Position numbers and translations under genes: made by a program. Source: Tubiluchus corallicola (Eukaryota; Priapulida; Priapulimorpha; Priapulimorphida; Tubiluchidae). From it: a stretch of 64,000 bases of DNA. The stretch lies in contig JAQGDQ010000021.1 in NCBI GenBank assembly GCA_030141605.1, positions 62,001-126,000 on the forward strand, given 5' to 3'. A model generated the notes under the pieces. The model did not search any database. It saw nothing but the letters and a program-made list of their open reading frames with translations, and was not told the DNA's origin. Positions 5,043-41,122 of this stretch are shown one piece after another. The number at the start of each line of letters is the position of its first letter. Positions within the stretch are counted from its first letter, which is position 1.

Positions 5043-5104
5043 GTGTGTTGGGCTGTCCCATTTTTCTCTAAAATCTCGCTGAGCCCGTTCTAAGAACTCC
5101 TTAA
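5043..5104 (-). CDS. PRKACA/PRKACB-like: PKA catalytic subunit, exon 2 (A-helix)
   Basis: This is a 62-nt exon, phase 1 to 0, with acceptor TTTTTACAG and donor CAC|GTAAGT. It encodes (V)KEFLERAQRDFREKWDSPTH, the amphipathic A-helix that packs across both kinase lobes in PKA. The length of 62 nt and phase 1 entry match the equivalent vertebrate exon. Because it enters in phase 1, any alternative first exon must leave one nucleotide of the shared codon; this is the test used for the candidate first exons listed below. It joins exon 3 in phase 0 with no residues missing. Confidence 0.97.
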
Positions 5105-5442
5105 CTGTAAAAATCAAATGTAAATATGTCAACGACTATAATACACAATAATTGATAATACAGAAATAAACTATTTTCATATCTGCAATATTAAAATGCT
5201 CACATACATTACAATATACAGCCATTTTTAGGTATTAAATTTCAACTTATTGCCTACAGAAACCCTGGGCAACAAGTCATAAAGCCATTATCAAAAACTA
5301 GGTTTCAGGTTACTTTACTGAGATTAAATTACATTCACTCCTTGATAATTAATTTAAATGTGTCCTGAGTGGTTACGGACTACAACCAATTGTTCAATCA
5401 AATTCAGTAACTGATACTTGGTTATAGACAATGGGTATACAG

Positions 5443-5929
5443 TAGTGTTGTTCTGGATATCCGATTCGTATCTGAAAATGGTAACAGAAAATGGCGAGAT
5501 TTTACAATTATCCGGTAGTTGTAAAACTTTGATATTCGAAAATATTCGCTATCCAGTTTTTGTAATGTGCAATTGAAAACGGGTTTCGAATAATTTAACA
5601 GCCGAAAATAACTAAATAAAATATTGCCAAAAAACTTAAAGATTGTTTTAGCCTATGTTTGTGTTTTCAAGACGAAAATTTTACACACATCTTTTTTTCG
5701 TTTGCGTATGACAATACGGTGTGTCTTCGGGCAAGGTCATTTAAGATGATAGTCTTTTTTTTCAGACTAATGAAAACGCTAAAGTTTGCAAACATTTACT
5801 AATTTTTCGTTATCCGAACCGATCTGCTTATTCGATCCGAATTTAGCTAACCGGTTATAATCTGAATCTGCAAGTCAATTTGAGGAAGTATTCGATGATA
5901 TCCAGTATTCGCTATCCGGAGCAACACTA
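5443..5929. mobile_element. 487-bp non-autonomous hAT-like MITE with perfect 8-bp TSD
   Basis: The ends are inverted repeats: left TAGTGTTGTTCTGGATA, right (reverse complement) TAGTGTTGCTCCGGATA. The element is flanked by identical 8-bp direct repeats GTATACAG at 5435-5442 and 5930-5937. An 8-bp target duplication is typical of hAT-superfamily insertion. The interior repeats short motifs built on ATCCG/CGGAT and ATTCG and has no useful open frame. It sits in the intron between PKA-C exon 2 and the upstream exons. The TSD being intact argues for a fairly young insertion. Confidence 0.9.
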
Positions 5930-8025
5930 GTATACAGTCCGCCAAGCGAAAGTGTTCAATAAAATGTTCCAATAAAAAGTCATCAACTACTTGAGCTGTG
6001 TTCACATATAACAGTCTCATAGTTAACTGAAACTTATTTAAAGAAATAAAGAAAGAAAAAACTGAAATTTACATGTAGACTGAAACTCGCGGTAGCTTTA
6101 AAAAGTATTGTGACTGTGTGAAAATTAAGAATGTTGGTTCAAAAGCAAATACATGTACACAATTAGGCAACAGGCAAGTAACTCGACTTTCAATTGAAAA
6201 TTTTAAACCATATATAATCAAATAAAAGACGAGTTTCACTTATTCAAAAACAATTAAAGTTATTAAAGTACAGGCATCATAATCTGAACATGTGTTCTAG
6301 TGAACTCAGCTAAGTGGAACTGTTAACACTGTCATCTGGCATAACTTAAAAGTCCCAGCCAAAAAAAAGTGAACACTACCTATCAGTGTTTAAAAAGTTA
6401 CACATCAGCATCACTGAAAAAATCCTCATGCGACTACACACTGATATTAAACAAGCACAACGTAGGTCCTATCTATCAAATCAAAAAAATCAGATTAGTG
6501 AACAAATTTTTGTTGTTAGCGTGTAGACTGAAGAATTTCCACTGTCAAGCACTTTGTCACAACACGATTTGTTCGAACACTAAGGTTGTGGACGCTATCT
6601 CTATAGCAAGCAGTTAGCTTCAGGTATTAGGAAAACCATGCATCCCACAAATTACAAAAATTGAGTTTGCTTCATAATTTCAGTTCAGTCAATAAAGGTA
6701 ACATTGCTTATGACAAACTATCAATTTAAAGCGTCAATTTAAAGTGTTCTATTTAAAGATTTACCATTATTGTAACCCATACCTACTATGAGCTATGGCA
6801 TGTTAAATAAGCACCTTCAAAGACAAGTTCGGTCTGAAATTTATCTACAAAGACATTATTCCTTCAACACAAAGTCTGCATAATAACAGAATTAAGATGG
6901 TGCCAAATACTAGCTGGTCATCAATTATAAAGATTTCTTTGAAAACAAACATTTTTAATATAACTTTAAAATAACATTGTAATATAATGTTGCAATAATT
7001 ATGCGGCTTATATATTGCAAGCGATGCAAAATTCGAAATGCTTCAATTTGAATCTGATTACAAGTCTGTGAATGTTCATAAATTAAGTGTGGTGTAAATT
7101 GTGAAGCATGGAGTATGGAGGACACACAAATGGAGCGCACAAATTTAGGCCTAAAAGGATGTGTAAACTAGTTATTTTCACAGATTTTCTATCAAGACTA
7201 GACTAAAAGTGGCATAATTGAGGATGTAAGCACCAAAATCTATCCGCATAATTATGTCGAACACCTGCACTTTACATGAATGCAAAAGCCTTGTAAGAGA
7301 CATTGTAACAAACCAAAGTGACTTTTTACATTCTTGCAGGCAGAAAACTAGACAAATTTGAATTAAATAGCTGAATTCATGCTGTTAATATCCACTGCAA
7401 AGCAAACCAACCAAGTCAAGCCACTGAGGTCAAGTGTTTGATAAGATGTGTTCCAGTTATTGCTTATTAATTTCAAATGTACTAGATTAATGTTTTCTTT
7501 TCTAGTGTAGTTGCTTTTTAAAGTCATTTTAATCATCTAACTGTTCCTATTATAGTCTTAATATTTAAATTTAAATTAAACAGAATTGTGTTTTGTAATA
7601 CAGCAATATTTTCATTCAACATAACGTGTGAATTTAATACAAACGTGTAAGCAGAAAGTCGTTTAGCATGTGTTCACAACAAGAATAGTAACTATTTGTG
7701 AAAATAAAATTTAAATGTCAGTTGATGAGTAGTGATTTGTTTCCTACATAATGCTACTTGGTAGGTATTTACAAGTTTATAACAATGTGTAGTTCGATTC
7801 TACAGTGAATGAAATTCAATGACTAGGCGATTATTTAACACGTTCTTACGTATTTATAAGGTGTATGTTAGGCCTGGATGATATATTACCTGCATTCACA
7901 CGCTTTGGCACTGCAAACAGCTGCAGCACATACGATGAATGGGTAGAAGTTATAAGCATGCACAGGTAGCACAGGTAGCAAAGTTTGAGATGTTTGATAT
8001 GCGCTATAGTGCAAATCTTACTTAC

Positions 8026-8070
8026 AGAAATGTGAGCAAGTATTACCACCCAAATCACCACCTTTATCAT
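8026..8070 (-). CDS. Candidate 45-nt PKA-C cassette exon
   Basis: A minus-strand candidate exon has a strong acceptor (TTTTTACCCACAG) and a strong donor (TTTCT|GTAAGTAAG). It is 45 nt long and, in the only phase that matches its neighbours (1 to 1), fully open: (D)DKGGDLGGNTCSHF(F) would be inserted between a first exon and the A-helix exon. Vertebrate PRKACB is known to carry small optional exons at this position. The sequence is not recognisably homologous to those. Splice signals and symmetric phase are seen; use in transcripts is inferred. Confidence 0.45.
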
Positions 8071-10503
8071 CTGTGGGTAAAAATATTATTTTAATAACTT
8101 CTATTGCTGTAAGAAAATAATATAGAATAGCACTGAGACAGGTCCAGTTTTTTTTAAAAAATAAACAAACAAAAAGTGTTTTTGAAACAAGAAATTATCA
8201 AAGCGAAATAGTTAAGCTCCAAATTTTTGAAAGGCCCTTGCAACTTAACTGTTGCATATAAAATTAATAAATGAACAAAAACATAAAAAAATGATAAATG
8301 CACTAAACTGCAATGCCTATTCATTCAACAGTTTTCTCACAAACAAAAAAAGAAAAGAAGTAAACTGTAAATTGCAGTCTCAACTGGATAATTTCACATT
8401 GTGCAACTGATTAAAATTTAATTGGACAAAATATGTACAGATGGGTGAGCACTTTCGAATCTTCAATGCTATTAGCCTATTAGCATATACATATGCGCAA
8501 TTTTACAAACTCAGTTTTTCTTATTAGCACGACAAGGCAAGAGCTAAATACTACACAAAGTCTAGGGACTAAAAAGTAATACAACCAAGACTAAAAAAAT
8601 TTAACTATTAAGAAATGGATCTAATCGAACGTAGTTACATCATATGTGTATTACTGCTGTTACAAAAGTGCTGCTGACAAACCACTGGCTTAGCACTATC
8701 ACTGCTGCGTTTACCTGTCTTGAGGATATATTTCTTTATATTAGAATTCCACATGCTCAGTGTCTACAACAGATGTAAAGATCTTTTGTGGTTGACTCTA
8801 CTGCTATATCATAATAGTTTTCCCTCTTCAGTGTAACGACAATTTGACATTTAAATCCTACTATTGTTTTTGCCAGAATAAAACAATACTAATAACTTTT
8901 CTGCGTTCCCATTGAGCTAGTTTCCAGCAATAAAGGATTATAAAAATAGTTTAACAGCGATCATTTTGTCAAAGATTTCAGTCGCAATAATGTGCCAGGT
9001 ACACTGAAGTACACGACATTAATTTTCAACAGTTCTACATTGAACGTCGTGCTACACGGTAATGGTCAACTATATCGTTTTGAAGCTTATCTTAGATGCG
9101 TTCCTGTTGCTGTCAAATAATTATCGCTCGCTTCTGATATAGGTCATGTGTCAGGTGTCTGATATTGATACAGCAATGTAATAAAACCCACGTGCAGCAC
9201 GGCGATATGAAGAGACCTTGGAGAATGTTGAAGACATTTTCAGCAGACTGAAGCCATCGTTGGAGGCTTCTCCAAGCCTGGAAAGAAAGTGGGGGAAAGA
9301 AACAGTCAAATTAAAAGTCCTAGTTAATTTGCGCTTGAACAATTTAAGTCAGGGTGAGCAGTAGTGGACCGCTGAGGTGTCACAGATGCATGTCTTTGAC
9401 GTTCTCATCCTAGATGCGCCCTCGACCAGTGACATCTTTAGTTAATGTAACAGCCTGAAGAAGCTCTTCGTGCCAAAAATAGAACAAAGCCGTAAGTAAT
9501 CGTAGAAAAGTCAAATGCAAAGTGAAAGCAATTCAGGCTCAGAAAAGATGGATTGATGAAATGCCATTTTCAGAGAACCTCGCTGCGTAAATACAGTTCC
9601 AGGTTCTCCGCAGAGAAATGCTGCCTGAGTAACTCATAGATTATGAAGCGCGGTCATAGATATAGAAAATAAAGTGAGGTCTTGAACCAGGTAAAAGATA
9701 ATAAATCAAACAGCTTTGTGTGTTCTGAAGATAGAACGGCTCAGATGACGTGTAACAGTAACAATATCATAATCGTAATATAAAGCCGGCATGAAAGGCG
9801 TTACTATTTACTAGAATTATAAACAATTTAATGAATTTATTCAGTGTACAAAAAAGTTCTCGTTTAATAGTAAGAGACTGTGAAAAGCAAAAATACATAC
9901 AGGAAAGTAAGACTCAAACCAAACAATAAACTGGAGGGTTTGCATTTTCCGTATTACGAAAGAAATGTAATTATTACTAATTAATGGTTATGAAAGTCAT
10001 GAATAATACTGTACTGAAATATAATCAATCTTATATACTACAAAACATAAGACTAATTTAAAAGATGATCAAAAGCTCTTTTTCGTTAAGTAAATGAGTA
10101 ATTTTTTTTTCTCTTTTGACGCTGTTTTAAAAGAAGTTAATCACAAAATCTCAATTTTTAACCAAAAAATTATAAAACCAAGACTCAACTATGCAGTTCC
10201 ACTTGATAAAAACAGTTCTTTACAGGCCTTCCTAACCGACTAACATCACAAGTCTAACCAGAAAGGACATGAATTAGACACGATGTCACTCTTTTCTATG
10301 CTTTCTTTGTCTTGAACCGTAAAGATCGCACGAGCGCATTAATGTCCACTCTTAAGCCAGTGTCGGAGACTCAGAAATCTAAACAGCACACTACAGCGCC
10401 ATCAGAAAAAATCACCGCAATGCAGCAACCCATATGCACGAAACTTTACAGAAAGAAACCTACACTACAATAATACATATAGTAAACAATTAAAAGTCAT
10501 CAC

Positions 10504-10561
10504 CACTTTGACTGTCGTCGCCGCGAGCAAACGGCCACATCAAATTCTTTAGAGCATCCAT
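10504..10561 (-). CDS. Candidate alternative first exon of PKA-C
   Basis: An ATG opens the 19-codon peptide MDALKNLMWPFARGDDSQS and leaves one nucleotide before a GTGATG donor, giving a GTT valine codon on joining exon 2 in phase 1. A textbook TATA box lies 187 bp upstream on the same strand, so the exon would have its own promoter and a 5' UTR of about 150 nt. The peptide lacks the N-terminal glycine needed for myristoylation and carries hydrophobic and aromatic residues that could act as a different membrane or protein anchor. The donor is only moderate. Alternative first exons with distinct N-termini are well established for PKA-C in vertebrates and invertebrates; this one is inferred. Confidence 0.55.
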
Positions 10562-10740
10562 TATGGACCTGCTGGCTGTCACCTAACCATCCTCCTCATC
10601 TTCCAGCATAGGCAGCAGCTCTTCTAACAACTACCCCAACAAACAGCTCCCAGGCTCATTAAGGCTTTTTACCAGCAGTTAGTTTAAAGCACATGCAGCC
10701 AAAGTTCAAAAGCAGATATACTACAGACACGAGTCGGCTC

Positions 10741-10748
10741 TATTTATA
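10741..10748 (-). promoter_or_regulatory. TATA box of candidate alternative PKA-C promoter
   Basis: The minus strand reads TCTATAAATAGAG, containing TATAAATA, about 187 bp upstream of the candidate start codon at 10561. Initiation would be expected near 10715. The surrounding DNA is less AT-rich than most of the intron. Confidence 0.5.
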
Positions 10749-13700
10749 GAGCTCTTCTTGCATCCTGACCTCTAAATAACGCAAAAGAAGGGAGGGAGAA
10801 CATTTGACAGCACGGCCATGTGAGAATGTTTTATACCTTCTGGGAAGCCCAGAAGCCATTTGTAGCATGTTTAAACATTACTCTGGCGTATAATGTTGGT
10901 TAAATCAATTTACTAAATTTTGCATACTACTTTAGACGCCCGCTCAGACCGCGCTGATGAGAACTGATGACGATGGCCCGAAATTATTCTCATTAAGCAT
11001 ACAATTAGTAGTTAATTACCAAATGCTATAAGCACCTTAATTGTTACCCCTTGTCTGTTACCACTGGCCAAAAAAATCGTGTGCTTTGGTAAACTCTACA
11101 GGTATAAACGTACTGTTAAATAAGCCTAATATATCCTCCTAAACATATAATGTCTACCTATGACCTAATGCCTGGATGTGATACTAGGTAAATCAGTCTT
11201 CTACGAATGATGTTTACAATAGAACTATTGACCGACGCAAACACCCAAATCAGAGATCCTAACTGATTAAAGAAATAAGATTTGATTTCCCCAAACAAAA
11301 AATCGAGTGGTCAGAAACCACACTTATCATCAAAAACACGGAGCTATACCAAAAGAATTTACTTGGTGTTACAATCGAACAGTGATTAGCAATGACCCAA
11401 GCAGTTAGTATTCAGTGAAAACTGCTGAAAACAAAAATCCCCAAAACAAGAAAAATAGTTCCGATATTCAAATTTCAATCCGTTAAACTGGTAGAAGGGT
11501 GTTGGTGCTTTTGCGCATAGTGATAGCGCATAGCAAGTGCGTGGCTAGGCAAAAGACAACATTGCCCAATAACCAGTATCTGTTTGACATCATCCCAGAA
11601 AATGGTAATCTTAATTCTCTATACTTACATCTTTCGAGTTTGGCAGCTCCCTCTGGCCTACTATGACTCTGTGTAACAAAATTGCATCAGCCCTTTTTAT
11701 CTCTTTACAAAGAAGTGCATTAATGATCGTTGCTGCGATCAGTTAATATCATTAATGTCATCTCATTTTCGTTAATCTTAATAAATGGCCAAATACTGCC
11801 TGCATTAAATTAACATTATCCACCAATTAGAGTCCTTAATATTAATTAGTAAGTAAGTTAACAATCAATAGGTAATAGTAATTAGAAACAAAAAGGTTCC
11901 AGGTTTATGCACTGCATGGATAATTAGTGATTTTTGTGGCTTAAAGGGTTCTTCACAGACCTATTTAATTTACACGTTGAGGTTGAGGTTGACAGAGCAT
12001 CAATTATAGACAACGAAATAAGCTGGCCCAAATTCACTGTTACACGATCCACTTGAATTCTGCTTTTCTAAGCTTTTCTTGCTTTATGATGATAACCATA
12101 ACCAGCTGTCAATCACATTTTCTGGTTGCACCGTTGTCACGTAAATATAATAACTATTTAAGTGGATGACTTTGATCTCATACCTGTGACATGTTGTATA
12201 TCTTCTTTCTAAAGCCATCATATAGGGAAAGTGTAAAGTAAAGCAAAGTAAGAATGATAATTGATACTCATTTGCCAGTTTCCATGACTTTCACTGCGAT
12301 CGTGTTTGTCACACAAGAGCTACGTTAATGCATTTTCATGCAGGCGACAAAACCCGTTTTAAAAAAAGATCACACATTTTTCATTATAAAAGCAATCGTG
12401 CCAAATAAACTAAGTCACACAAAATTCGATCAGAAATTACTCTAATGCTGAAAAGTTGTTTCGAATTTGTCAACGCAAAATTTTAAATAACGAATAACAA
12501 AAAAATGACAAATAACTCGGCCTCAATGACCTGTATAATTTGCCCACAAAAAATACAGGCCCTAACACAACGTTGATGTAAAAAACTGTTCCGTATTACT
12601 CGTTGTCTTATACACCACCTAGGCCTAGCAAACGGTTTTGTTATAGCCTGTGTGTCGTCGCAGAGTCTTATCAACATAAGTCGTTTAATTTGAATTACCT
12701 ATGCCGAAGTTATTTCATCTTAGGTTCATCTCGCTAACATTAAAGACATTAAGTACAACAATACGAAATCAGGTTAACGACTCAACACTGCTATCGCAGT
12801 GCATCATACCATCATACGCCAAGAATGTACCTAGTACATTTCAAACATGTTTTCCTATTTCTTACGTTTCTTATGCTTGAAGTGACTCACTTTTAGTTTT
12901 TTCTGTATATATATTTAACCTAGCCAGAATTGGGCCTATCTCCATTTGAATAACAACTAATTGCAGTAACTTCAACTTTACAAGGTGCCCTTGAGAAGTT
13001 AACTAAAAATAAATGTATTTTTTCTAAGTAAAACAATAATCCTGTAATTTATCAGATGTCTATTATAAACTCCTCATACATTTGAGGGAAACTAGAAAGC
13101 ATTGCAGGAATGGTAACCCAAGGCTAGAACGACATATAATACAAGAAGCTACCAAGGAGCATTGAGTGCAAGATTTTGCTTTGAAGTCTAACGGCTCTAG
13201 TCTATTCATAGAGTGAGTTCTTATGAGCTGGAATTTGAAAAATTTGAATCACTTGAATAAGACAGCAAGACCAATAATACTTTGCACTCTAGAAACAGGG
13301 CCGGATTTAGACGAAGAGACCATAGGCTGTTACCCTTGTGAGGCCCATCCCAGTCCACCATCCTCAATCACGTCTATGGAAGATGGATGAATTCTACAAT
13401 TCACAGTTCCTCCTAGGATATAAGATGGTATTGTTAAATACCCTAGTTAATAAAAAATGCATAAATGTTAAGAACGCGTCCGCGAGAAGACCATGCAAAA
13501 TCGAAAAATTCCGGCACAAGGCTAGGTAACCGATTCGGACCAAAGTTCGGGTATGAAGTCCACTAGTCACTAGCATTCACTATGTGAATCCGTTTGGTTC
13601 AACTCCTCATAGTAGCAGAGGTACGGCATAGGCTGATTTTCATGAAAAAATATATATTTTCTCTCTATTTTTTACTCATATTTGAAGGATTAGCCATGCA

Positions 13701-15000
13701 GCAACCACTGAGTTTGAATAGATCTGACCCTGCACAGTATTGGATCTTGTTATCTTCTCCAAAATGACTTTTTGACTTTTGTCCCAAACCCCCCTCTTTC
13801 GGCTCTACTGGGGGTCTTTAAGCTCGCAGTACGCACAAGATGCAAATACTCAGTCATTTCAAAGTCTTATATCTCACCCACTGCGGGGGCGGGGACAAAA
13901 ATATCGATATGTATGTGAATAGAGCATCCCATCCCACTATGCTGCAGTGACAATTTCGATGGAGCGAATTTCCACCCTATTGTAAAAGACCCCTGAAAGA
14001 GGCCTATATCAGGGTGAAAATATAGCTAACAACGTTCATCAAAAAGCTTCGTGTAGGTAACCATGAGTTGTCAAATCTTGTCAAAATACTTCAAAACGTC
14101 ACAAATATTCATCTTTGGCAACTAGGGGCCTGGCCAGCACATTGGTTAAACTACCGACAGGATTGGACTCCAGCATTCAAGATGGCGGCCACTGCTGAAC
14201 TAAAATGTTCGTTTTCTGGGCTGTTTTTACCAGTGTTAAATGCGGCATTGTGACTAGTTATCCGCACGAAACGATTATTGTGAATCTATTAGCCTGTACT
14301 ATAGACACTGGACCGCATTTAGAGCGCTTCCATCTTCAAACAAATGAAATATCTACGGAATGGAAATTGCTTCTTGCAAGGACTGGAAAATGTTTTATGT
14401 ATTGTTTATTTTGTATGCTTTGTAAATGTTATGCACAGGTTATTACCTAGTTATTATTCATTGTCTTACATAGGCGTACAAGCCAGGACACAAAGAAAAT
14501 TGCCCTAAATCTGAGCGAATGCCCAAAAATATGGGACAGACTTCCCCCAAAATATAATTTGTCCGGTGATTTTTTGACTGTAAAACATCGAAAATTTTTG
14601 TGCCATTGGCGCAATCATTCAATCACACTATTTGTATTTTTTGTCAGAAGTATCGATTTTGTGCCACAAAAAAATTTGGGCGAAGAACAATTTTCTGAGC
14701 TAACTATCACCGCCATCCCCCTAGAAGCGGCCCATATGCTTATATTGTCTCATGTTTAGACTGTAAGATTTTCGCTTTATCACTTTCCCCATATATATTT
14801 GTCTATATTTCTGTATCTATCTTCTAGTGATAATCTACCTGCATCGATAATTCTTTCTCTATTATTTAGATATTATGGTTTTGATTACATGTACTACTCT
14901 TCAGTGATAGGTTTATGCTGCTACAATAGGAACCGTATTTTGGACTTAGAGAAATTAATTCTGACTGAGTTTTGTAGTTTTTCATTTTTGTACTGATATT

Positions 15001-15529
<529 letters not shown>

Positions 15530-17839: not shown

Positions 17840-17900
17840 CTTGAATATCAATATCTTCCTCCTGTCCAGGTTTGTCCATCAAATACAAACACCACGACAT
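17840..17900 (-). CDS. Candidate alternative first exon of PKA-C
   Basis: An ATG opens a 20-codon peptide, MSWCLYLMDKPGQEEDIDIQ, followed by one nucleotide and a GTATGA donor. This phase 1 exit gives a valine and joins the A-helix exon in frame. The peptide starts with a hydrophobic patch containing cysteine at position 4, which could be lipidated, and ends acidic. No good TATA box is seen upstream. It lies just beyond the right end of the decayed transposon, so exonisation of transposon-derived sequence or chance are the alternatives. Confidence 0.45.
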
Positions 17901-19249: not shown

Positions 19250-19265
19250 GTCTAAATCCGGTCCT
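19250..19265. repeat. Isolated hAT-type terminal motif
   Basis: TCTAAATCCGGTCCTA is the inverse of the left terminus at 13,296 and extends into matching subterminal sequence (GGATTTAGAC followed by an AAGAGG-like stretch). It matches that terminus better than the 17,367 end does. It may be the end of a second related element whose partner is lost, or the true right end of a larger composite. Confidence 0.55.
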
Positions 19266-19935: not shown

Positions 19936-20173
19936 TTATAGGAGGCGGTTCGCTGGATATATATAGCTTAAAGCTGTAAGTGTCGTCCTCCTCGCTATTT
20001 TCCTCTTCTTCATACTCCGAGGAATCCTCTTCATAATCTTCATCATCATCATCCTCTTCTTCTTCGGAACTAGGTTCCCGTTGCTTTGTCGTCTTGGACT
20101 TTGCAGCTGGAATCGTGATATTGACCGTAAACTCATCATCGTCATCATCCTCATATTCGGAGCTGGACGACAT
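19936..20173 (-). CDS. Candidate alternative first exon of PKA-C encoding an acidic leader
   Basis: From an ATG at 20173 the frame runs 79 codons plus one nucleotide to a strong donor (ATAA|GTGAGT). Phase 1 exit gives an isoleucine codon and joins the A-helix exon in frame. The peptide starts MSSSSEYEDDDDDEF, has a short basic hinge (KSKTTKQR) and then a long Glu/Asp/Ser run ending SSEPPPI. Several SSE and SDE-like sites would suit casein kinase 2. A TATAAACA box lies 138 bp upstream. No family is recognised for the leader itself. Low-complexity acidic coding can arise from GAW repeats, but the start, promoter motif, donor and phase all agree. It could instead be the first exon of an unrelated gene. 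Confidence 0.55.
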
Positions 20174-20303
20174 GACAATTCCTTGCGTGATACAAACCAG
20201 ATAAATGCAGATGTGTCTGCCTGCCGAAATGTTTGACAACTGCCTTGTAAATACACAAGTTGGCAACCTTGCCACGGAAAAAGAAAAAGAACGTCAAACT
20301 GGC

Positions 20304-20311
20304 TGTTTATA
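20304..20311 (-). promoter_or_regulatory. TATA-like box upstream of the acidic exon
   Basis: The minus strand reads GTGTATAAACAGCC; TATAAACA would place transcription start near 20,280, giving a 5' UTR of about 105 nt before the ATG at 20173. Confidence 0.4.
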
Positions 20312-21487
20312 CACAATTCAGCAGACACAAATAGCAAGGAAACACAGCTGCTTAATGATTAGATATTATAGTTCTGCGGCTGCAATTGATGATCCAGTCC
20401 TGAGCCTATTATGCAGAGATTTACCAGCACACAAATTGAAATCAAGGCTGAAAGACCAGATCAGACTGGGATAAGAACTGTTCAATTTACACTGGAAGAA
20501 GCCAGCGGGCACAGGAAGCCGTATTTACACATCCCACAGATGAATGTGCCAAATAAATCAGGGAGCCACACAGAACTTGGTGTAGCTTACCAGCGCGCGA
20601 CTTGAGGGCAAACCTCCAGTGACAAGCAAAGTCAACAAGCGATGGTGGTGCTCAGGACAGCCGCAACGATGTGCTGGCCACGTGCACAAATAATGTTCAC
20701 ACAAGATACCCCGCCAGCTGCCAGCCAAAATATAAGTAAGAGAAAAACTCCGGGAAAACTCCTGGTTGCAGTTGCTGCTGCTGTTGTTTCAACACGTTTT
20801 TACTGCACTTTCAGCAAACGATTTAGTTCACAGAAAACTTTTTACGCCCCGTCACCTGTTTTCAAAGTTATACGGCATACTAACTGGAGTTGTTCAAGTA
20901 CTTGCTACTGCAGTGAATATAATCCTTAAACATGCACAGAACTCGACTGCAATTTGTAGGCAACGCTTTGCGTCCAGGCTCCAGCGGTTCAAAAACTGTG
21001 TCAAATTTAACAGTTTCAACAATTCAAAAACGAACGTACAGCAAAGTCAATAGGTTCAATAAATGTAAGGGCCATTTGAATAGTCGAGACAAAATTTCCA
21101 GAATAGATCCAAAACAATAGTTCAGCTAAGCATACTGCATAGCAACCAATTCCTCTTGTGGAAATGCCTTTTCAGGAGATCCAGTTGACCTGGCCAGTAA
21201 AGACAGTCTGTTACAGTAACGGTAACTATTCCCTATTTGACTACACCTAGTGCTCTTTCGGAAGACAGATTTCAGAGCTTTGGAACTCTGGACTTAATCA
21301 TCCGGACCCTTTAACACGAGCATTGGTCTCGCGGAAGCTTCTCTGAATAATCAGTTTCTTCAGTGAAAATTTTCTCCAAGATTCCAATTTCTCTTGAAAA
21401 ACCGTCCTAAGTTAGTACTTTTCGTAGAACTGTAGCAAACTTGTTTATTTTTTAGCCTTATCCGTTGAAAACTCAGTGATTCCATAC

Positions 21488-21514
21488 CTTTACAGCTAGC
21501 ACGCAAGTTCTCCA
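21488..21514 (-). CDS. Candidate 27-nt microexon of PKA-C
   Basis: A good acceptor (CCCGTTTTTGTTTGCAG) and donor (AAAG|GTATGG) bracket 27 nt. In phase 1 to 1 it encodes (V)ENLRASCK, which would insert nine residues ahead of the A-helix. The same donor also ends a different open frame that begins at an ATG at 21583 (peptide starting MCPASVDQWLLKF) in phase 0, which cannot join exon 2 directly. Either use is inferred. Confidence 0.35.
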
Positions 21515-21769
21515 CTGCAAACAAAAACGGGAAACGGACAGCAAGAACTTTAGCAGCCACTGATCAACAGATGCGGGACACATTGAACGCGTTGAAATTT
21601 AATTTTCTCTCACTGTACTCCTCACAGCTGCTGGGTGGGTCATTCTAAACTTCTACAATTTCACAAACTTGAAACCGCCCGATTTCGATTCGCAGGCAAC
21701 TAAAGAGCCACACTTCCAGCTCTGCATGCAACGCTGCACGCCACAGACTAGGCTGCAATGCCGTCTCCT

Positions 21770-21777
21770 TATTTATA
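21770..21777 (-). promoter_or_regulatory. TATA box, minus strand
   Basis: The minus strand reads GCTATAAATAAGG. It lies 194 bp upstream of the ATG at 21583 and about 260 bp upstream of the 21.5-kb microexon. With the boxes at 10.7 and 20.3 kb, it makes three similar minus-strand TATA motifs, each ahead of a candidate 5' exon of PKA-C. Confidence 0.4.
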
Positions 21778-22053
21778 GCAAAGAAAACATCAAGTTAGTT
21801 TAGATTAAACTTTTTAATGCAAACAAATATAATGAAAGCGCAGATTTAAGTGCAATTATTTCACGGCAGATGGTCGGATTGTTTTGCTAAAGAAGAAAAA
21901 TTATTGTTGGATGCGCTTATTGCCAGCCAGTGCTTACGTAAAGAATCTAATTTAATTCGCTGCTATTGCATAAATAAATGCCTTTTTTGACGCAGAGCAT
22001 GAATGAAGAAAACCATGGCCAGTCATTCTGCAACTAACAAAGGAACTACCATC

Positions 22054-22365
22054 TTATAAATGACATCCCTGCCTCGTACGCTTATTTACATGAACTCCCC
22101 ATTTATCGGTAACCAGAGCTGTTTCTTCGTGGAATTCGTGGACACCACGTTTTCCTTTGATAATAAAAATTGACAATTTCGAACATATGGAAGACCAACG
22201 GAATAAGGATAGTTGCTCCGTCCTTAAATCTTTCCGTCCTGTAGCGAAACATTCCCACCTGGCTTTTCTTTTGGGACGCTCTATAGAAAAATCAACGACC
22301 ATAGGGTGAAACCTAAATTCAGATAAGAAATCGCGTCCACTCGAAGACCTGATGTGAATTTTCAT
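22054..22365 (-). CDS. Unassigned 103-codon open frame
   Basis: An ATG-initiated frame (MKIHIRSSSGRDFLSEF...) has a mixed, protein-like composition with a basic segment (ERPKRKARWECF). I recognise no family. It lies within the PKA-C locus on the same strand. Possible donors inside it are weak and mostly in the wrong phase; one (CGTG|GTGTCC) is phase 1. It may be another 5' exon, a transposon fragment, or chance. Confidence 0.2.
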   Translation of the reverse strand: MKIHIRSSSGRDFLSEFRFHPMVVDFSIERPKRKARWECFATGRKDLRTEQLSLFRWSSICSKLSIFIIKGKRGVHEFHEETALVTDKWGVHVNKRTRQGCHL

Positions 22366-23036
22366 GGCAGTATTAAACCATAACCTTTGTAACTGCTTTA
22401 CTTTATCATTATTTTGTAGTGATTAATTTTAAGTGACGTACTTTTTAGAAATTGTATTGGAAACTGCTAGCTACAAGACATTATTTGGAAGCGCTAGTCC
22501 CACAGAAGGTTAGAAGCAGTACCAAACGAAACAACATAGCGGTAACTGGCAACAAATGTGCACACACTTTGCTATGGCATGATGTGCAAAGCAATAAAAA
22601 CAAATTACTGTAACCAAGACTGCCAAAGGACAGCATCCTGTCAACTGTTCAAAATGACTGTCAACTGTACAAAAAGTCCTAACATTCTCTGATTCAAAAG
22701 ACTTCGCGTGCAAATTGCCCCGTGAATTTTGGAATTAAGGTTGAAAATTCAATAATTTAAATGGGCAGAATCCAACAATCTTATACAGTTAAAAACAAAA
22801 CCACCAAGTGAAAAGCCATCCTGACGTAATCGTATTGTGTAAATGCATGACTGAAAATTTCTTAAATGCCCGAAGTACCATAAATGCCAGCTTGCACTCT
22901 ATAACTGGTGGTTTGAACTGAAACATGAGTTACGTGACATCCTGGACTACCATAGACGTTAGCACATCATTTCGTAATTGCCACGTAGCCAACAACCAAT
23001 AACCAAAAATCACTCCAGTCTCACATACTTTCCACA

Positions 23037-23324
23037 AGATCTCGACACCGTGCAGCCAACTTGCTTCGCATTTTCCAGGAGCAAAGCGAGGTTTTAAGAA
23101 GCTGCTACTCCGTGAAACCCAAGAGGCATGGTCGACCATACAGGAAGCACAACTGGCGGCACGGTTAAAGCTTGCAGATTAAGCAAAAGAAAATGTTCCA
23201 AGGTCTTCCTGCCTGGTTCCAGGAGAAAGTTGATGCCGAGGTTAAAGATATACATACACTGGGGTATGGATACAACGCTGTACTTTGTTCTCAACAAGCA
23301 AAGCGCATACTAACTGATCCATAA
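23037..23324 (+). pseudogene. Degraded protein-coding remnant, family unknown
   Basis: Three adjoining plus-strand segments read as coherent protein when one frameshift (near 23,095) and one stop (near 23,180) are bridged: SRHRAANLLRIFQEQSEVL, then KKLLLRETQEAWSTIQEAQ and so on, then LPAWFQEKVDAEVKDIHTLG and GYNAVLCSQQAKRILTDP before a stop. The helical, charged pattern is gene-like and less AT-rich than the surroundings. It could be a retrocopied pseudogene inside the PKA-C intron or an old transposon. I could not name the parent family. Confidence 0.35.
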
Positions 23325-26300
23325 ATATATACATACCACAACACATGAAGAAAAAGCGAAGTTCCACGTAGTAATAGAAGTAGTCCGTGAACATGTATGT
23401 GAAGAATACTCAAAAAGAAATTTGTTTAATAAATTTGCCGTAAGCATGGGCCTAACACAAAAACACATCTAAATGTGACTTTTAGCCAATGCAAGAGATG
23501 CTAAAAATTTGACACATAGTTAATTTTGTTTAATCTGTCCGTAAATATAGAATTCAAAACCAAGAATTTCAAAACTTCCGAGTTCACATTCAACACACAT
23601 TTGTGAAATGGGCCCAATTATTTACAATTAGTAATAATCTCAGGCAAAGACGAAGCCCTTCTAAAGCAACTACAAAAGTAGGGAAATTTTCCTTCTTGAA
23701 AACAGAAAATGAATATTTAACATAAACAAATATCAACCTGTAAGTCATTCAGTGTAGTGCAGCAGCCATCTGGATTCTGGACCATGTCTGTTAGCAAAAA
23801 GTGGCGGTTTATTTGACTTGTAAGTGAAGTCTTAATACATTAGATAAAATAGGAGAGGTTGGAGATCCGCGCACAAACAAACTCTGGTAGTTCAAATATC
23901 TCTGACAAGCTATTTGTAGAGTTAAATGGTATTTTTTGGAAGTTTTGGTGAGGATTTAGGCAGCGAACTGTTGCTGTGATTGAGTACTCAGTCTGAATGT
24001 AATGTTCAGTCTGATAGGGATAATAACAAAGGTGAGGATGATGATAACTGACAATCATGATGTTAATGGTGGTGTGGCTAACAACTTAGCAGGTGATTAA
24101 AACTAATGGAACACTAATAACAATAACTTTGATATTAATGAATGTTCTACATAATGCAAAACTCACTGTTGATCTACATTATATACATTTTTCGCATTCT
24201 AATGCTTGCACAATTGGTATAAATTTTATATTAAATGAATATTAAATATATTAAACAGAGTTAAATTGTAAGAGATGGTCATTCTGGTTCTCGTTCCTAC
24301 ACAACTTTTAATATTTGGCTATTTCTCATATTTAAAAATTACTTTGCTCTCAGTTTCTCACTGAAACACATTAAATTGTTAATCATGGCAGCTCCTGTAA
24401 TTTAATGACTTTAATTAACATTAGCTGTGGAGCCGTTTCATTACTAGAACGTAACATTGTGCCATCCTGTCAGTACTTGGAATTAGTTTTATTGCAATAC
24501 TATCAGTATTAGTTTTTTCACCACTTGTTGCAATATTGCCATTGGCCCCACTCTGGATAAGTGCAAGCTCAATGATGTGGCACCTGAAATTTTTCAGAAA
24601 TTTCACAAAAAATAATAGTATTTTGAGAACAGCAGTAAATAAAGTGCTCTTAAATAATACATCAGTGAAAAGTTCACGTCCTTTAGACACCTCTTTTGAA
24701 ACTTACATGAGGCTTAACTGAATCAACTAGAGGAATCATTACAGCAAATTTCTGGAAAATTTCACAGTACACCAGACTGAGTCTTCTATGCATAAAATGT
24801 AACATTATTTCATTAATTAAGCTAGTTCAACTAAATTAGCAGCAATAGCTAGTTCGTCCAACCTAAACAGATCTGTGGTTCAAACTTCTCAGAATCAAAT
24901 CAACACCTTTACCATTTGTGTACTATAATAAATTACATCTGAATTGTTTTAAAAGTTGTTTTAACAATTCAAAAAAATCAAGTCATATTTCTACAACTCG
25001 GGTCTACAGACATAATGTCATATACTGCTCTAACGGTTCTTTAGAACCAGCTCATCTAGCTTATTATTGGGTACACGGCCTTTATAACAACCACTAGGCT
25101 ACTATCACAGCAATGAGGAATGATGACTGACAGATGAGAAAATCAATAAACATCCTGGCTTCCTTAATGATGTAAACACAGCAGTTGAAGACAGACTGAA
25201 GTGGACTAGCCAACAAGTAATGGCCTGGGATTCCTAATGGTCAGTGCCACTGGCCGCTGCTGACTGGTCAATAATTAACTATTCCCCAAAAAGGCTTCCT
25301 GACACAGACACCGGACCACAAATGAAATAGATAACTATAAGTATATTCTATCCTAAGGATACAATGACAAGGACAACAATCAAACTAGGCATAACTCTTA
25401 GACAAAGTTGCAAAGTTGTTAAAAGCCACGTCATGGAAAAGGTGAAAGCATTTATAACCATTTATAACTTATCAGCATGTAGACATAGTTAAACACGATA
25501 TGATTGAAGACAAATACTTCACAATACAGTGGACCGCAACTATTTTCATTCGTTCACTTTTGACAGATGCTGAAGCTTAACAAAAGTTATGCCATAGTGC
25601 TTTAACTTACCTCTGGGTAGACATATAGACCTTGGTTACGTGGTAAATACATTCTCAACTGTATGTAAGAAGAAACAAATCAGAAAACTAGAATTATTAT
25701 TTACACCAGAATTCTAACCCAGACCTTTTATATTATGTTATGTTATGCTAAAAAAACTTTAAAAAGCTACTGGCCTACTTCAAAGTTCAAATGGCAAAGA
25801 TACGAAAGAATTACAGATTTCAAACGATGCAATAGATGCCATCATTAATATTATGTTAATAAGACTATTTTACCAGAGGACGACCAAGACACTTGGGCTC
25901 GTAATTTCTTAATTTCCGCAGTAGTCTTAAATTCCACAGCCATATTTGAATATTTAAAGCAAAGAAAGGCAATCAACTACTCAGACCAATACAAAAAACA
26001 ATCACTTCAAGATCATCTCGTGTCATTCTAGGTGCCCCTTTATTGTCAAAATCACACTTTATGTACACAAACACATAAGCCAATTATGGGATGTAAGACA
26101 TCAACATCGTTTAAGAAAGAGCAGTTAAAGGAAAACCGGACAATTGTTTAAACTCGATTGTTTTGAACACAGCTATTGCTCAAGTCAGAAATTAACCACA
26201 GTTTGTGCAATGACAACCATTTTCCCTTGCGTTACACTCAAGCAAGTTAGCATAAGTGTTACTGCTTGAACGAAAATGGGCTCTACATCATATGACATCA

Positions 26301-27454
26301 AAAACTAACACTGCAGTTCATGATCGTGCTTATCACGATACCACCTTCTATTTGTCAGCCACACGCATATGACAATAAGGCACCTTTGCCAATCTTAGTA
26401 GATTCACTGAGCCGCGCATAGCTTTGAAAGTTTAACAAATGTGAGTATCTGAGGTAATTATTATTTAATCTAAGCTTTGATTTAAAAAAAGCCATTGTAG
26501 TTTTCAATATCTTAGAGCATTCTTTATTCTGAACAAATGTTTAAACAATCATCCAGTTTTCCTTTAACAAGCAGTTGCAGAGCAGCTAAACTGAAAAACT
26601 ACAATGTCTTGAACTCCATTGACTTTCTTCTTGTAAATGATGCAGTAAACTTATTCAAATGTTGAAGATCTAATGCGGATACTCTGACATCAACCATGGA
26701 AAGCTTTCTTCACTTTAAACCACAGTCCCACCAAAGGCCACACTCTTATTAAACTTTACAAGAACAGCTTTTCAAACACAGAAGTAGATCTACCTGGAAT
26801 TCCCTACAGGAAGAAGCAGTAAGACTAGAACTGATCAAAGGTTCAAAAACACATTAGGTAAGTTTTTATGTAACAGAGGTCTCCTATATTAATATCTTTG
26901 CAGAATAATTAAAGGCAGAGCACATTTCTGTAAATATATATTCATGAAGAGACTTTATGTCTAATGGGTTGATAAATAAATTAGTAAATTCTCATTGTCA
27001 CAGTAGACACTTGTGGTATGCACGACAAGTAGGAATACCAGTTTACCTGCACAGAATTCAATGCACCCAGGCAGGTCACAAAAACATTAAAAAAATGCCT
27101 ACCATTTTTAACAATTTGACAGTGGCTCTCCAAACTATACATTACTATTTAGCAACCTATCACTAATTTTATTATTAGTGATTATTATTTATGATTATTA
27201 GTATCAATAATCTACCTCAAATGCAACGATTTTGCTACTTAACAGGGCTTGTATTACAAGCTTTGCAAACATCTTCGGAAAATATTGTTGTTACGTTGTT
27301 TTGACTTCAACCTCCCTTGAATTGAAAATAAAATGCACGCAACCGACTATGAAAGAAACGCATAATAAAGTCTCACAGGCAATAATCACAGGACGGTGTT
27401 GAAATCTGAACTTAAGTATTTTCAGAAAACATGCAATAAACAGTGCAAGCCTAC

Positions 27455-27500
27455 CATTTTCTGCCGGATCCCCTTTCTTCGACGTTGCAGTATTTCCCAT
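27455..27500 (-). CDS. PRKACA/PRKACB-like: PKA catalytic subunit, canonical myristoylated first exon
   Basis: The ATG at 27500 begins MGNTATSKKGDPAEN and the exon leaves one nucleotide before the donor GAAAATG|GTAGGC. Joined to exon 2 it gives AEN-V-KEFLERA, the exact arrangement of the vertebrate canonical first exon (15 residues, phase 1). Gly2 followed by a small residue at position 6 and KK at 8-9 is the N-myristoylation signature of PKA-C. An upstream GTG codon could extend the frame by one codon, but the ATG is the conserved start. The intron to exon 2 is about 22 kb. No TATA box is seen nearby, unlike the alternative exons. Confidence 0.95.
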
Positions 27501-28655
27501 CACGAAAACGTAGACATTCGCGGCAAAGGCAGTAACGCGACAGATTAAGAGACTTTTACCGGGAATAATCCATAAATGCTATCAATTATTTAATTTTTAC
27601 AATAAAATAAATAGAAATGCCAAATTCTCAACAAGCAACACCCAACAACGCCGAACGACACAGTAGAGCAATCCGCACAAAAATAATGTAAAGATTTTGT
27701 GTAGTTTATTTTCAAATATTCGGTATTTCCGTCTACTCGTACTATTTAACGTAAATGACAAACTAACATCTTTCGATTTTATCGCAAAATCTACTTAAGG
27801 TAGTTCATGCAACAAAAATAAAACATACGCGGATAGGTTTTCGTCATCGCAATTACAGCCAAACCAATTTGTTGCCTCTTGCAGAATTTCTAATATCGTG
27901 GCGACATCTTTTGACGATTACCAAGACTTTCATTCTAACGCGAAAGCGACAAAAAGAACCTTGATGGATTGTTACAAGTCAGATACTGGCATGATCATTA
28001 TGTTTCAATTGCAAAAATTTCAGTATATTTATAGCCTACAGCCATAAAACAATAGGTTTAAGTCTAATTCTAATTAATTTTATGAATCTATATATGTCTG
28101 TGTATAATTTCAGCCCAGTTCCCTGTTGCAACAAGCTTGTCTTTATTGACACACATGATTGTAATGCAAAGGTTACCGAGAAGTCACTGTAATCTAGTTT
28201 AGCCATAAACCCTTAGAGCAATGGTAACGAAAATAGATAAAGGTAGTTTCAGCCTGCCCCAGACACACCCAGCCCTGGTCTCCCCATTATATAATTTATA
28301 TATAATTTCTGACGTAGAGCCATTTAAATGAGATAAATTATAATGGTAGGCCTACGCCTATTTAATTTGTGAATTTTGAAATTCAAGATAGTAATCACTA
28401 TTTTACAAAATTTATTGTTTTCTTACAAATTTCAAGCTTTTATCCCAAAGTGTACGATTTTTAGGTTTTCTCACTATAAATGTGATTAGCTCATGAAAAA
28501 ACTACAAATGTTCATGCAATATATGCAATATTTGTTAGCATGATATGTAACAAAATTCATAGTCATAAGCTGAACAAATTATTGTAACTGTATTGTCAAG
28601 ATTTGACTGGAAAGCGATTAACATTGTAGAGAGATTTTGTTGGCGAACTATACAC

Positions 28656-28930
28656 TAGTGGCGAATCGTAGTAGTGGCGAGTCGTGAGAGGAAGCGAAGT
28701 GACCAGTGGCGAACTGAAATACTTTTGTTAAGTGATAAGGTATTAACATAGTAAATAAATTTAGTTGGCGAATCGTAGTAATGGCGAAACGTAGTAGTGG
28801 CGACATGCAACAGAGGCAATCATAGTAGTGGCGAATCGTAGCAATGGCGAATTCTAGTAGTGGCGAATCCTAGTAGTGGCGAATCGTAGTAGTGACGAAT
28901 CGTAATAGTGGCGAATCGTAATAGTGGCGT
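28656..28930. repeat. 16-bp minisatellite
   Basis: Repeats of GTGGCGAATCGTAGTA and close variants (GTGGCGAATCCTAGTA, ATGGCGAATTCTAGTA, GTGACGAATCGTAATA) run in two blocks separated by an unrelated stretch near 28,720-28,765. The right block is the most regular, and its spacing is 16 bp. Reading frames are interrupted by stops, so it is not a repeat protein. It lies about 1.2 kb upstream of the canonical PKA-C start. Confidence 0.9.
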
Positions 28931-30538
28931 ACTGGGCCCCGGTGGATACCCAATTTTATACGAAAAATCCCCCAAAATAGCAAATGAAATAAAAATTATT
29001 GCAGTGTTTACACTCTACACATGACACGTGGGCAACAGGGTAATTAAATATAACTTTAATAACAACAGATATATATATGCATATGCCTTAAACATATATT
29101 ACCAAAAAATTCAAATTTGCTCCTATGGTGCTGAAACTTGGCGAGAGTGTTGCCAGATACTTGAGTGAGAATTTTTTATGACTTTATTCTTAGTTGATTT
29201 AATAAGCTACTGGAGTAAACGCTAGTCATACTGTAACTGCAACATTCACATCGCTAATTTCGCTTAAAGTTAGTTTTCAACTGTATAAACCAAATATTGA
29301 CCGTCGTAAAAATGCAGTAATTTACACCCGTTACATTCACTGTATTACTGATGTTTGCTATGACCTTCACGCTGTCACCAATAGAGTCATGCAGACTCAA
29401 CCCGTACAGGACTACATGTCACCCATTATATTTTGATAGCAGACAAATTAATAGACGTAACGGTAAATATTTTATTTATGTTATATAGTTCTACTTCTAC
29501 GCTGATAAATCGAGGCGCCTGGTATTATATTCCTGTCCAATTATATTCTGTCACAAGATATCCGTGCGTTATATTTTTCTAGCTAACTTGAAGTGGCTGC
29601 AAAACTGGGGTGCAAACAAAAAGTCTGAAAACGCACACCAACGGGATATGCTGAATTTACTAAAATGTGATTGAAATAAACGAATTCCCACGCTGGGGTA
29701 ATAATGTACTAATTATTAGTATTCATTATATTTAGCATTTTAACACAATTAAAACCACAAGCAGAACATGAAAGTTGCATCGCTTCGCCAAACCTAAAAC
29801 AATTGCGTTCACTTTCATTATGTTTTTATTTAAACTGCTTAGGACTTTGAATGGCAAACCTGCCATCCATTGATCAAAATAGTAAATTATAATATGGCAC
29901 GAACAAAAACCTGTTCGAAGTGCTTTTCACATAAAGCGACTAATACAGAAGCTTCGAAGTAAATTATCACCGCAGAATTATCAGGAGTGTTGTTAGCGTT
30001 AAAGTCGGTTTAATGAGTGTTCTACATTCCTAGCCTTCACAAAACAACTCTTTTCACATAAAAGTCTGTCGTGTACCACAGATGCTTCCACTCAGTCCTC
30101 TCTGTCCTAAAATCATTCAAGTACAGGGAATTCCAAAAGAAATACTAGTTACGCACCAACAAATTAATGCTATAAATTAAATATACTAATTTTATATCAT
30201 AATTATTCAGTAATGTGGTCATATCAGTTACATCGTGGTAGGAAATGGGAATGTAATTAATATTTGCACGTCATTATACTGTCACAATGTAGAAATCGGT
30301 TTATTTTGTCATATTCACAATTAGTCCTGGTCTACTGCAATGTTTTCTTTTGAACACCCTGCATAGATATCGAGAGTGGCGGACATTCACCATTATGCCT
30401 GCGTTGGTCTAATAATGCATAACTATAGTGACAGTTCTCAAAGACTGTTTTTTCTAGCCTCATCAAAAAATTATTCGTTTTATTAACGTGGGGGCTGACC
30501 CGTCAATTCCGAGAATTGATTCGAAACTGTATTCAAAC

Positions 30539-30775
30539 ATGTTTACAATATCTCGATTTTCGTTAAAACAACGAAGAACGAAATATAACGAAGAAACATT
30601 CACTTCAGAAACTAGAATTGCCCAAGACCGTTCAAAACTGATTCACACTGGTTTGCTTCCCAGCGCTTACACTCAAAACAGGCTTGTACAAATTTACCAG
30701 CAAACTAAGCAACAAGAAAACACACAAAAGACTTACAATAGAAATGTTTCTTTGGATCTAAAGCGGAAAAATTGA
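30539..30775 (+). CDS. Unassigned 78-residue open frame
   Basis: From an ATG the frame encodes MFTISRFSLKQRRTKYNEE... and ends DLKRKN followed by a stop. Composition is basic and polar, with a Gln-rich section (QQTKQQENTQ). No domain, signal peptide or membrane segment is evident and no family is recognised. No splice signals clearly define it. It may be a small orphan gene or chance. Confidence 0.2.
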   Translation: MFTISRFSLKQRRTKYNEETFTSETRIAQDRSKLIHTGLLPSAYTQNRLVQIYQQTKQQENTQKTYNRNVSLDLKRKN

Positions 30776-31541
30776 GAATATCCATGCGTGCGATATCATC
30801 ACAAGCGTTTAATCCTACACCATTACAAAAACGACCTCATAGTTTAAAGCTTTAGAGGAAAAACACATACACATAGCCTCAGGTTTTATTGCCATCATGA
30901 AACAGGTTTAATGTAAACTACCAAGCTTGCTGGTATTCAACTTTGCTTTGCATGACTGGTCTTTATAATGTTATACAATTTTTCATTATTTGTAGGTACA
31001 AGCGAAGTGGGCTGTCCTAAAAAGAGGTGATATTATGGCTTTTTTCACCGGGGCTTTCACTCGGATGACGTTGCTAGAGCGCGTTCAAGCTAGGAAGGCC
31101 TCTTAAAAAGTACTACTATTATACCTGTTTTAGCTGACGATAGTTTGGTGATTTATTATTTATTTACAGATAGCCTAGTTATTTGTATGATTCGAAATTA
31201 ATCCGACGCGATGACAACAATAATGACGCGCATTTTTGTGCAAACATTTAGCTATGCTACTCCTGCAAGCTGTTTATGATTAGGTAAAAGCGCAAAATTA
31301 AATAAGTACTACCTCCCTTTGCCCAATTACCCGATAAATAGGTTTGTACCCATATTATCGATCACGAATATTAATTTATTCATTCTTTATTTATTCTTCG
31401 TCTCATCCTAGGTCAATTTATGATTAATTCACCATAGCCAGCTCATCATGAAACAAGCTGTAGATGGATGCTATGGCCGGTCCGAGTGGATGTGCCACTA
31501 AAACTGACATACGTGTTTAATTGTAGTGGTTCTTAACTTAC

Positions 31542-31824
31542 ACAGTTTGTTCCATTTGCGGACATTTGGATTGAGCTCCTGCCGACGGACCAGATCTGAC
31601 AAAGTGCGCATGCTCGTCGGCTCCAAATCAGGAGTCAGGAGGTTCGAGCAAGCTTGTGCAAGTTGGTTAGCGCTTGCTGTCCTCTGTTGCCCGTGCTCGG
31701 CACTCGCTATTCTCTTCTGTCCTTGCTGTCCACTGCCCGATTGATTTACCGTCTGATCATCTGATGACTTGCCATTCCGATCATCGGGTTTCGGCTTTGT
31801 CTTTTTGTCTTTTGTACCAAAAAG
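31542..31824 (-). CDS. Candidate distal 5' exon of PKA-C, or exon of an unknown gene
   Basis: A stop-free 94-codon frame lies between a good acceptor (TTGATTTCTGTTTAG) and a good donor (CTGT|GTAAGT). It reads LFGTKDKKTKPKPDDRNGKS, continues Gln/Ser/Ala-rich (SAEHGQQRTASANQLAQACS) and ends MRTLSDLVRRQELNPNVRKW-NKL. Exit is phase 1, so it could splice to PKA-C exon 2, giving a phenylalanine at the junction. The only in-frame ATG is at 31611, which would give a 23-residue first-exon peptide; used as an internal exon it would enter in phase 0. I know no homologue, and it could belong to another minus-strand gene. Confidence 0.4.
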
Positions 31825-38722: not shown

Positions 38723-38777
38723 ATGCCGGACAAAAACGACCATTCGGGAAAAAGTTTCAAGCAGAGAAAATCATTTG
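38723..38777 (+). CDS. MAP1LC3C-like: LC3C-like ATG8 protein, exon 1
   Basis: The exon carries the ATG and encodes MPDKNDHSGKSFKQRKSF before a phase 1 donor (TTTG|GTAAGT). The basic FKQRKS motif is the start of the first N-terminal helix that distinguishes LC3s from GABARAPs, and it matches human LC3C closely. The nearest candidate regulatory element is the CRE 150 bp upstream. LC3 proteins are conjugated to phosphatidylethanolamine on autophagosome membranes by the ATG7/ATG3/ATG5-12-16 system and recruit cargo receptors. Confidence 0.95.

Positions 38778-39218: not shown

Positions 39219-41122
<1,904 letters not shown>

Follow-up and report, generated by a model that had tools for sequence, protein, structure and literature searches.

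A predicted acidic alternative first exon in a PKA-C gene of the priapulid Tubiluchus corallicola

Introduction

How many different N-termini can a single PKA-C gene give its kinase? The question is raised by a 64,000-nucleotide stretch of the Tubiluchus corallicola genome (hereafter, the window; contig JAQGDQ010000021.1, positions 62,001 to 126,000), whose minus strand carries the 5' exons of a PKA-C gene. A sequence-only reading of this window had placed a canonical, myristoylation-type first exon at 27.5 kb and had proposed four further first exons, at 10.5, 17.9, 20.1, and 31.6 kb. Of these four, we take the 20.1-kb exon as a genuine, although predicted, alternative first exon of PKA-C because of its coding score and because a second PKA-C gene has a similar acidic exon; that all four serve as first exons is not established. 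The proposal as a whole, namely that this is an ordinary animal PKA-C gene that uses alternative first exons, is in our view probable.

The framework of the gene is provided by three exons, all on the minus strand. Exon 1-1 (27455..27500), the canonical first exon, encodes MGNTATSKKGDPAEN followed by a split codon for V and is of the N-myristoylation type (MGN..K). Exon 2 (5043..5104; phase 1) is directly preceded by an AG acceptor, begins with TT, continues as KEFLERAQRDFREKWDSPTH, and would be the common acceptor for the first exons. Exon 3 (2827..2955) contributes 43 protein letters. The joined residues 1-79 from these three exons align with PKA-C alpha without gaps (best E value, 5.3e-30), which shows that the gene is real. 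Exons 4-10 were located by tblastn, with a human query sequence, in order on contig C296, the contig of the window, beyond the window itself. Kinase sequence is thus found across the gene, from the alignment of exons 1-3 and the tblastn matches of exons 4-10, and both elements of the MGNxxxxK / FxxxW consensus (PMC12608923, in part) are present in the translation, as MGNTATSK and FREKW.

An acidic exon between exons 1-1 and 2

The 20.1-kb exon (19936..20173, minus strand) has 79 codons and an acidic product that starts with MSSSSEYEDDDDDEF and ends with TYSFKLYISSEPPPI and then I, its last base, A, being directly followed by the donor GTGAGT. The open reading frame (ORF) has a coding score of 37.6 bits (phase 1), the highest among 171 ATG-to-donor candidates, whereas the maximum in 200 shuffles was 7.0. 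Among the exon-like segments of the minus strand, it ranks fourth, in the company of exons of the neighboring gene and above PKA-C exons 2 and 3; this ranking is biased toward the neighboring-gene exons, because they trained the codon model and the 20.1-kb ORF did not. The model was trained on 640 codons of the window, comprising PKA-C exons 1-3 and pieces of the neighboring gene, with the four candidate exons excluded. Weights for donors, acceptors, and start context were generic animal values, not fitted to this sequence. A whole-genome protein search with the 20.1-kb peptide gave no other match below E 0.4, and comparison with Pfam and PDB stayed at chance level (Pfam DTHCT, E 0.54, below its cut-off; a ribosomal protein chain, E 0.56).

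The second PKA-C gene lies on contig C166, where the 79 residues, used as a whole-genome query, matched an exon 3 that is 72% identical over query positions 34-79. The comparison of the two genes covered C166:1-36000. Exon 1-1 of the second gene was found at 8729 (MGNSPSNKLSKEGDPEN) and exon 2 at 15348 (VKDFLERALKEFKERWENPQQ, with its first codon split), and exons 3-10 were also located on this contig. Between exons 1-1 and 2, on the gene strand, lies an acidic ORF that starts with MSSSETDSSEYEDESDEE and ends with TFTWSYSVRNKPSF and then C at position 14591, followed by GTGAGT in phase 1, the phase that fits exon 2 of that gene. Both acidic exons are of the MSSS...SSEYED type, and they agree in place, strand, and phase. 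In 163,387 bases, both strands included, 280 frames of at least 35 codons open with ATG and end at a donor; six rows of this set contained at least 28% aspartate plus glutamate, and these correspond to three loci: the 20.1-kb exon (two rows), its counterpart on C166 (one row), and an ORF on contig C2309 (three rows) that continues into a different kinase domain. Agreement in place, strand, start, phase, and composition together is unlikely to arise by chance, and the second PKA-C gene appears to share the acidic alternative start.

A conserved promoter of the acidic exons was also considered and was rejected: short matches occur at a similar distance from the ATG upstream of both exons, and they are no better than those of random window pieces, 27% of 500 of which score as well. 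On C166, the sequence upstream of exon 1-1 extends for 8.7 kb only, and some of this is duplicated in inverted orientation: C166:1-4135, near the contig start, is a 98.8% inverted copy of 6383-10540 and holds a copy of exon 1-1. Misassembly may therefore have affected the second PKA-C gene in its upstream part.

Donor phase and the short frames

The observation at the center of the sequence-only reading, that four minus-strand stretches end at a GT in the phase of exon 2, is correct. The canonical exon and the 10.5-, 17.9-, 20.1-, and 31.6-kb stretches each leave one base before the GT (phase 1), and each of the four candidates lies 5' of exon 2 and is open, on the gene strand, up to such a donor. 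Joined to exon 2, the canonical exon and the 10.5- and 17.9-kb frames would give V as the junction residue, the 20.1-kb exon would give I, and the 31.6-kb stretch would give F. We rejected phase agreement as proof of an exon, since such donors are common on the gene strand. The minus strand between 5104 and 32000 holds 35 ATG-open phase-1 donors (at least 6 codons and a donor score of at least 0.5; the number is also 35 at 7 codons), and a phase-1 ending is therefore weak evidence. The 35 frames are about twice the shuffle mean of 17.4 (standard deviation, 3.9), and the other five strand/phase classes contain 12-25 each. Frames of at least 19 codons with a phase-1 donor number 16 versus a shuffle mean of 7.9 (standard deviation, 2.9), with at least four such frames in 95% of 200 shuffles; the corresponding number for phase 0 is 13, close to that for phase 1. 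Because phase 0 is nearly as frequent among the longer frames, we made no use of the excess of 35 over 17.4.

Two of the proposed first exons are short. The 10.5-kb frame (10504..10561, minus strand) would encode MDALKNLMWPFARGDDSQS and then V, and the 17.9-kb frame (17840..17900, minus strand) would encode MSWCLYLMDKPGQEEDIDIQ and then V or, from its second ATG at 17879, MDKPGQEEDIDIQ and then V. A further candidate, absent from the sequence-only reading, is found at 25874..25943 on the same strand (MAVEFKTTAEIKKLRAQVSWSSS and then V) and ranks 4th of the 35 frames by the combined score of donor, start context, and coding. A combined score of at least 5 is reached by 8 of the 35 gene-strand phase-1 frames and by 5 of 90 frames in the other five strand/phase classes (one-sided Fisher P = 0.008) or, once the 20.1-kb ORF in its two readings and the canonical exon are removed, by 6 of 33 and 4 of 89 (P = 0.024); the cut-off of 5 was set while tabulating and some of the frames overlap, so these P values are rough. 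The enrichment suggests that a few of the frames at 17.9, 25.9, 13.3, 10.5, 23.0, and 28.3 kb are real, without indicating which ones. As PKA-C exons, the 10.5- and 17.9-kb frames thus have modest sequence support and are unproven.

Another exon-like candidate within the PKA-C intron, the minus-strand segment 9277-9192, ends at a phase-1 donor (MSSTFSKVSSYRRAA and then L) and, at 7.0, has the top acceptor score of the segments listed; it shows no coding signal as a segment. A text search of the paper library with five peptide strings gave no match; figures were outside its coverage, so absence from print is not implied.

The open reading frame at 31.6 kb

The 31.6-kb stretch (31542..31824, minus strand) consists of 94 open codons that run from a TTTAG acceptor to a final T followed by GTAAGT. 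It is a probable coding exon, putatively of PKA-C. Since its frame opens right after the acceptor and has no ATG there, it is not the plain first exon that had been proposed. It would be a second coding exon or else, behind a 5' leader, a short one; the sole Met in its frame (MRTLSDL...) is 23 codons away from the donor. The segment ranks 8th on the minus strand, where the scan preferred an earlier GT at 31591 (phase 0), and in 100 shuffles no phase-1 segment of 60 or more codons reached the coding score of this ORF. No second genome copy of the peptide was reported (next match, E 0.59), and searches of the Pfam families (E up to 1) and of the PDB chains (E up to 5) gave no match. The best phase-0 candidate for an upstream partner, one of three listed, is MATFNGFYKQ (last base, 38421), a minus-strand frame with a strong phase-0 donor, approximately 270 bp from the start of an ATG8/LC3-type gene on the other strand. 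Phase-0 frames upstream of the 31.6-kb ORF show no excess (2 versus 5.9 in shuffles).

If spliced to exon 2, this ORF would put a Trp four residues before the junction residue (RKW-NKL-F), a spacing that we take to be that of Trp59 in human Cb2. A Trp in this position occurs in 3 of the 35 gene-strand phase-1 frames (at 31.6, 25.9, and 16.7 kb) and in none of the 90 frames of the other classes; it was noticed after the fact and is only a hint as an exon signature. The segment SMRTLSDLVRR is strongly amphipathic (hydrophobic moment, 0.82), and a single-sequence structural model has helices at residues 52-63, 75-84, and 86-93 (mean predicted local distance difference test score, 61.1; predicted template modeling score, 0.21). 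These features could be read as a design like that of the vertebrate long exon 1-L/1-2 (CaL/Cb2), in which a Trp lid would take the place of myristate at the acyl pocket and would be accompanied by an amphipathic helix and a disordered tail; this would make the 31.6-kb exon an invertebrate counterpart of 1-L/1-2 by descent or by convergence. We consider this relationship very improbable. Homology is weakened by the position of the ORF, which lies 5' of exon 1-1 and not between exons 1-1 and 2 as 1-L/1-2 does, by the presence of the Trp in three of the 35 frames, and by a 2017 survey that, in the part consulted, found no 1-L/1-2 homologue in the few invertebrates examined (PMC5526564). Trp59 of Cb2 itself is conserved except in non-teleost fish and was suggested to act as an acyl-pocket lid (Soberg and colleagues; PMC5526564 and PMC6143667, in part).

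Weighing the alternatives

Several observations weigh against an acidic first exon shared by the two genes. At the 20.1-kb exon, a rival phase-2 GT, 7 bases further along (last base, 19929), scores 41.1 versus 40.4 for the phase-1 donor and is also preferred in the segment scan; joining this end to exon 2 would lead to an immediate stop in exon 2. The acidic exons are of low complexity, and 12 of 2000 shuffles reach the local alignment score of the pair. The whole-genome protein search, at E up to 1, did not report the C166 counterpart, the two exons show no significant similarity in the 400 bp that precede them, and counterparts of the 10.5-, 17.9-, 31.6-, 25.9-, and 30.7-kb peptides were not found in C166:1-36000. 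All exon calls are predictions from genome sequence. Lastly, the acidic ORFs of both genes run into a stop two codons past the junction and are readable as complete small ORFs, in which case the 20.1-kb ORF would be a single-exon ORF ending in PPPISE and TAG. We regard this last reading as very improbable, because the exact GTGAGT is present in both genes in the sole phase that fits each exon 2, and because in both genes the acidic ORF lies on the gene strand between exons 1-1 and 2. An acidic alternative first exon is, in our judgment, the better account of the 20.1-kb ORF.

Whether PKA-C uses further exons is less clear. It may be that only the canonical and 20.1-kb exons belong to the gene and that the 10.5- and 17.9-kb peptides are chance frames in the 22-kb intron, and here we see the scales as evenly balanced. 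The same strand and phase contain dozens of like frames (the 35 counted above), the 10.5-kb frame has a coding log-likelihood ratio of 2.5, with one as good in 32% of shuffles, the 17.9-kb frame, read from its first ATG, has a score of -0.1, and neither has a counterpart found near the second PKA-C gene. On the other hand, by combined score, these frames rank 6th (10.5 kb) and 3rd (17.9 kb, from its second ATG) of the 35, in the class where high scores are enriched; the GC content beside the 10.5-kb frame reaches the window's 98th percentile, although that beside the 17.9-kb frame is at the 78th; and TATAAATAG occurs once on the minus strand between 5104 and 32000, with its start (10748) placed 187 bp before the ATG of the 10.5-kb frame. 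As for the 31.6-kb ORF, its location upstream of the canonical exon, the missing ATG at its start, and the lack of a Pfam or PDB match or of a counterpart near the second gene, upstream of whose exon 1-1 only 8.7 kb are available, would all suit an exon of another, unrecognized minus-strand gene. We consider such a gene rather unlikely: the upstream gene on the same strand already ends, at a stop at 43073, and of those among the best 28 segments of the minus strand that fall within 31.5-5.1 kb, just the 20.1-kb ORF and, at the edge, exon 2 exceed a coding score of 2.4. Exon 2 is thus the nearest partner of the right phase for the 31.6-kb ORF.

In the preferred reading, an ordinary PKA-C gene with alternative first exons, alternative promoters would choose the first exon, and each first exon would splice to the acceptor at 5104. 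The start region near 27.5 kb is rich in CpG (observed/expected ratio of 1.92 in 27454-27854, the 100th percentile, rounded, of 400-bp windows) and would give the usual MGN form, which can be myristoylated. A second start near 20.2 kb would give a 79-residue acidic and probably disordered N-terminus without the myristoylation glycine; because it starts with MSSS, this form could not be myristoylated. The 31.6-kb ORF would probably act as a further 5' coding exon of PKA-C, via an upstream exon or the internal Met, and the 10.5-kb frame, the 17.9-kb frame, or both may be genuine short exons. In the alternative forms, the acyl pocket would be empty or otherwise filled, which may change membrane and partner binding.

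Neighboring genes and other features of the locus

An ATG8/LC3-type gene is located on the plus strand at 38723-42145, with its ATG at 38723, in the opposite orientation to PKA-C; two of its later exons match PF02991 (E 1e-10 and 2.9e-10). Upstream of PKA-C, a long minus-strand gene extends over 43-62 kb. By similarity, this gene is presumably TALPID3-like; a Pfam search with six pieces joined by X and with ten single pieces gave no match to the TALPID3 family. A tandem array of approximately ten 16-bp units (TGGCGAATCGTAGTAG) occupies 28766-28929, 1.3 kb upstream of the canonical first exon.

Alternative exons are also seen in the 3' portions of the two genes. The PKA-C gene of the window has two alternative copies of exon 5, of 27 protein letters each, between exons 4 and 6 (starting at C296 56154 and 55453, minus strand), and a single exon 5 was found in the stretch of the second gene that was searched. 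Each gene has two alternative last exons (C296:43169 and 41918; C166:24193 and 24885), with C-tails of the usual FDDYEEE type or of an APLIP...FIDF/FASF type.

Relation to known PKA-C 5' exons

To the sequence-only reading, which treated alternative N-termini of PKA-C as known, the spread of these exons over 26 kb, with peptides that it did not recognize, looked new. Large sets of 5' exons have already been published for Caenorhabditis elegans, vertebrates, and invertebrate deuterostomes, and a 26-kb spread is not unusual: PRKACB extends over approximately 160 kb (PMC3625193, in part). In C. elegans, kin-1 has six 5' exons (N'1-N'6) and at least 12 isoforms, of which the N'1 forms are myristoylated and the N'3 and N'4 forms are not, and depletion of the N'3 forms results in paralysis and egg-laying defects (PMC9692727, in part). 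The gene described here would resemble kin-1 as a single PKA-C gene with several alternative N-terminal exons, a likeness of description. For T. corallicola, both an acidic transcript and a comparable behavior of its product are predictions.

The resemblance to vertebrate PRKACA and PRKACB (exons 1-1, 1-L/1-2, 1-S, a, b, and c; human PRKACB has four 5' exons plus a, b, and c) is one of layout: exon 2 is preceded by the alternatives and shares with exon 1 the final codon of the latter, a long disordered N-terminus is encoded between exons 1-1 and 2, and 5' exons are paralogous across two PKA-C genes (PMC5526564, in part). Unlike the vertebrate long exon, the long exon of T. corallicola is acidic, and no Cb2-type sequence was seen in it; also unlike in vertebrates, the exon sharing between two PKA-C genes appears here in an invertebrate lineage. 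Invertebrate deuterostomes likewise have highly diverse 5' exons (L1, L2, L3, 1V2, 1V3, and p), three of which lie upstream of 1-1, as the 31.6-kb exon would, although this likeness too is one of description (PMC5526564, in part). Decapods have a MGNxxxxK form together with forms that differ only in the N-terminus (PKA-C1, -CD1, and -CGLY1/2); however, their N-termini are glycine-rich or of the MATL type rather than acidic, and their origin by splicing was left open in the part of that study consulted (PMC12608923). Alternative PKA-C 5' exons are thus established in vertebrates, nematodes, and invertebrate deuterostomes, with N-terminal variants in decapods, and the PKA-C gene of T. corallicola is a new example of a known principle, not a new principle.

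Myristoylation of PKA-C and the filling of its acyl pocket, and so the place where the freed kinase acts, depend on the N-terminal exons. If the predictions are true, an acidic, nonmyristoylated form that two PKA-C genes of one genome have retained would amount to a natural experiment on this question. Should the 31.6-kb exon prove to be a counterpart of the vertebrate long exon and the acidic exon be common to both genes, long nonmyristoylated forms of PKA-C with that design would be older or more widespread than the vertebrates.

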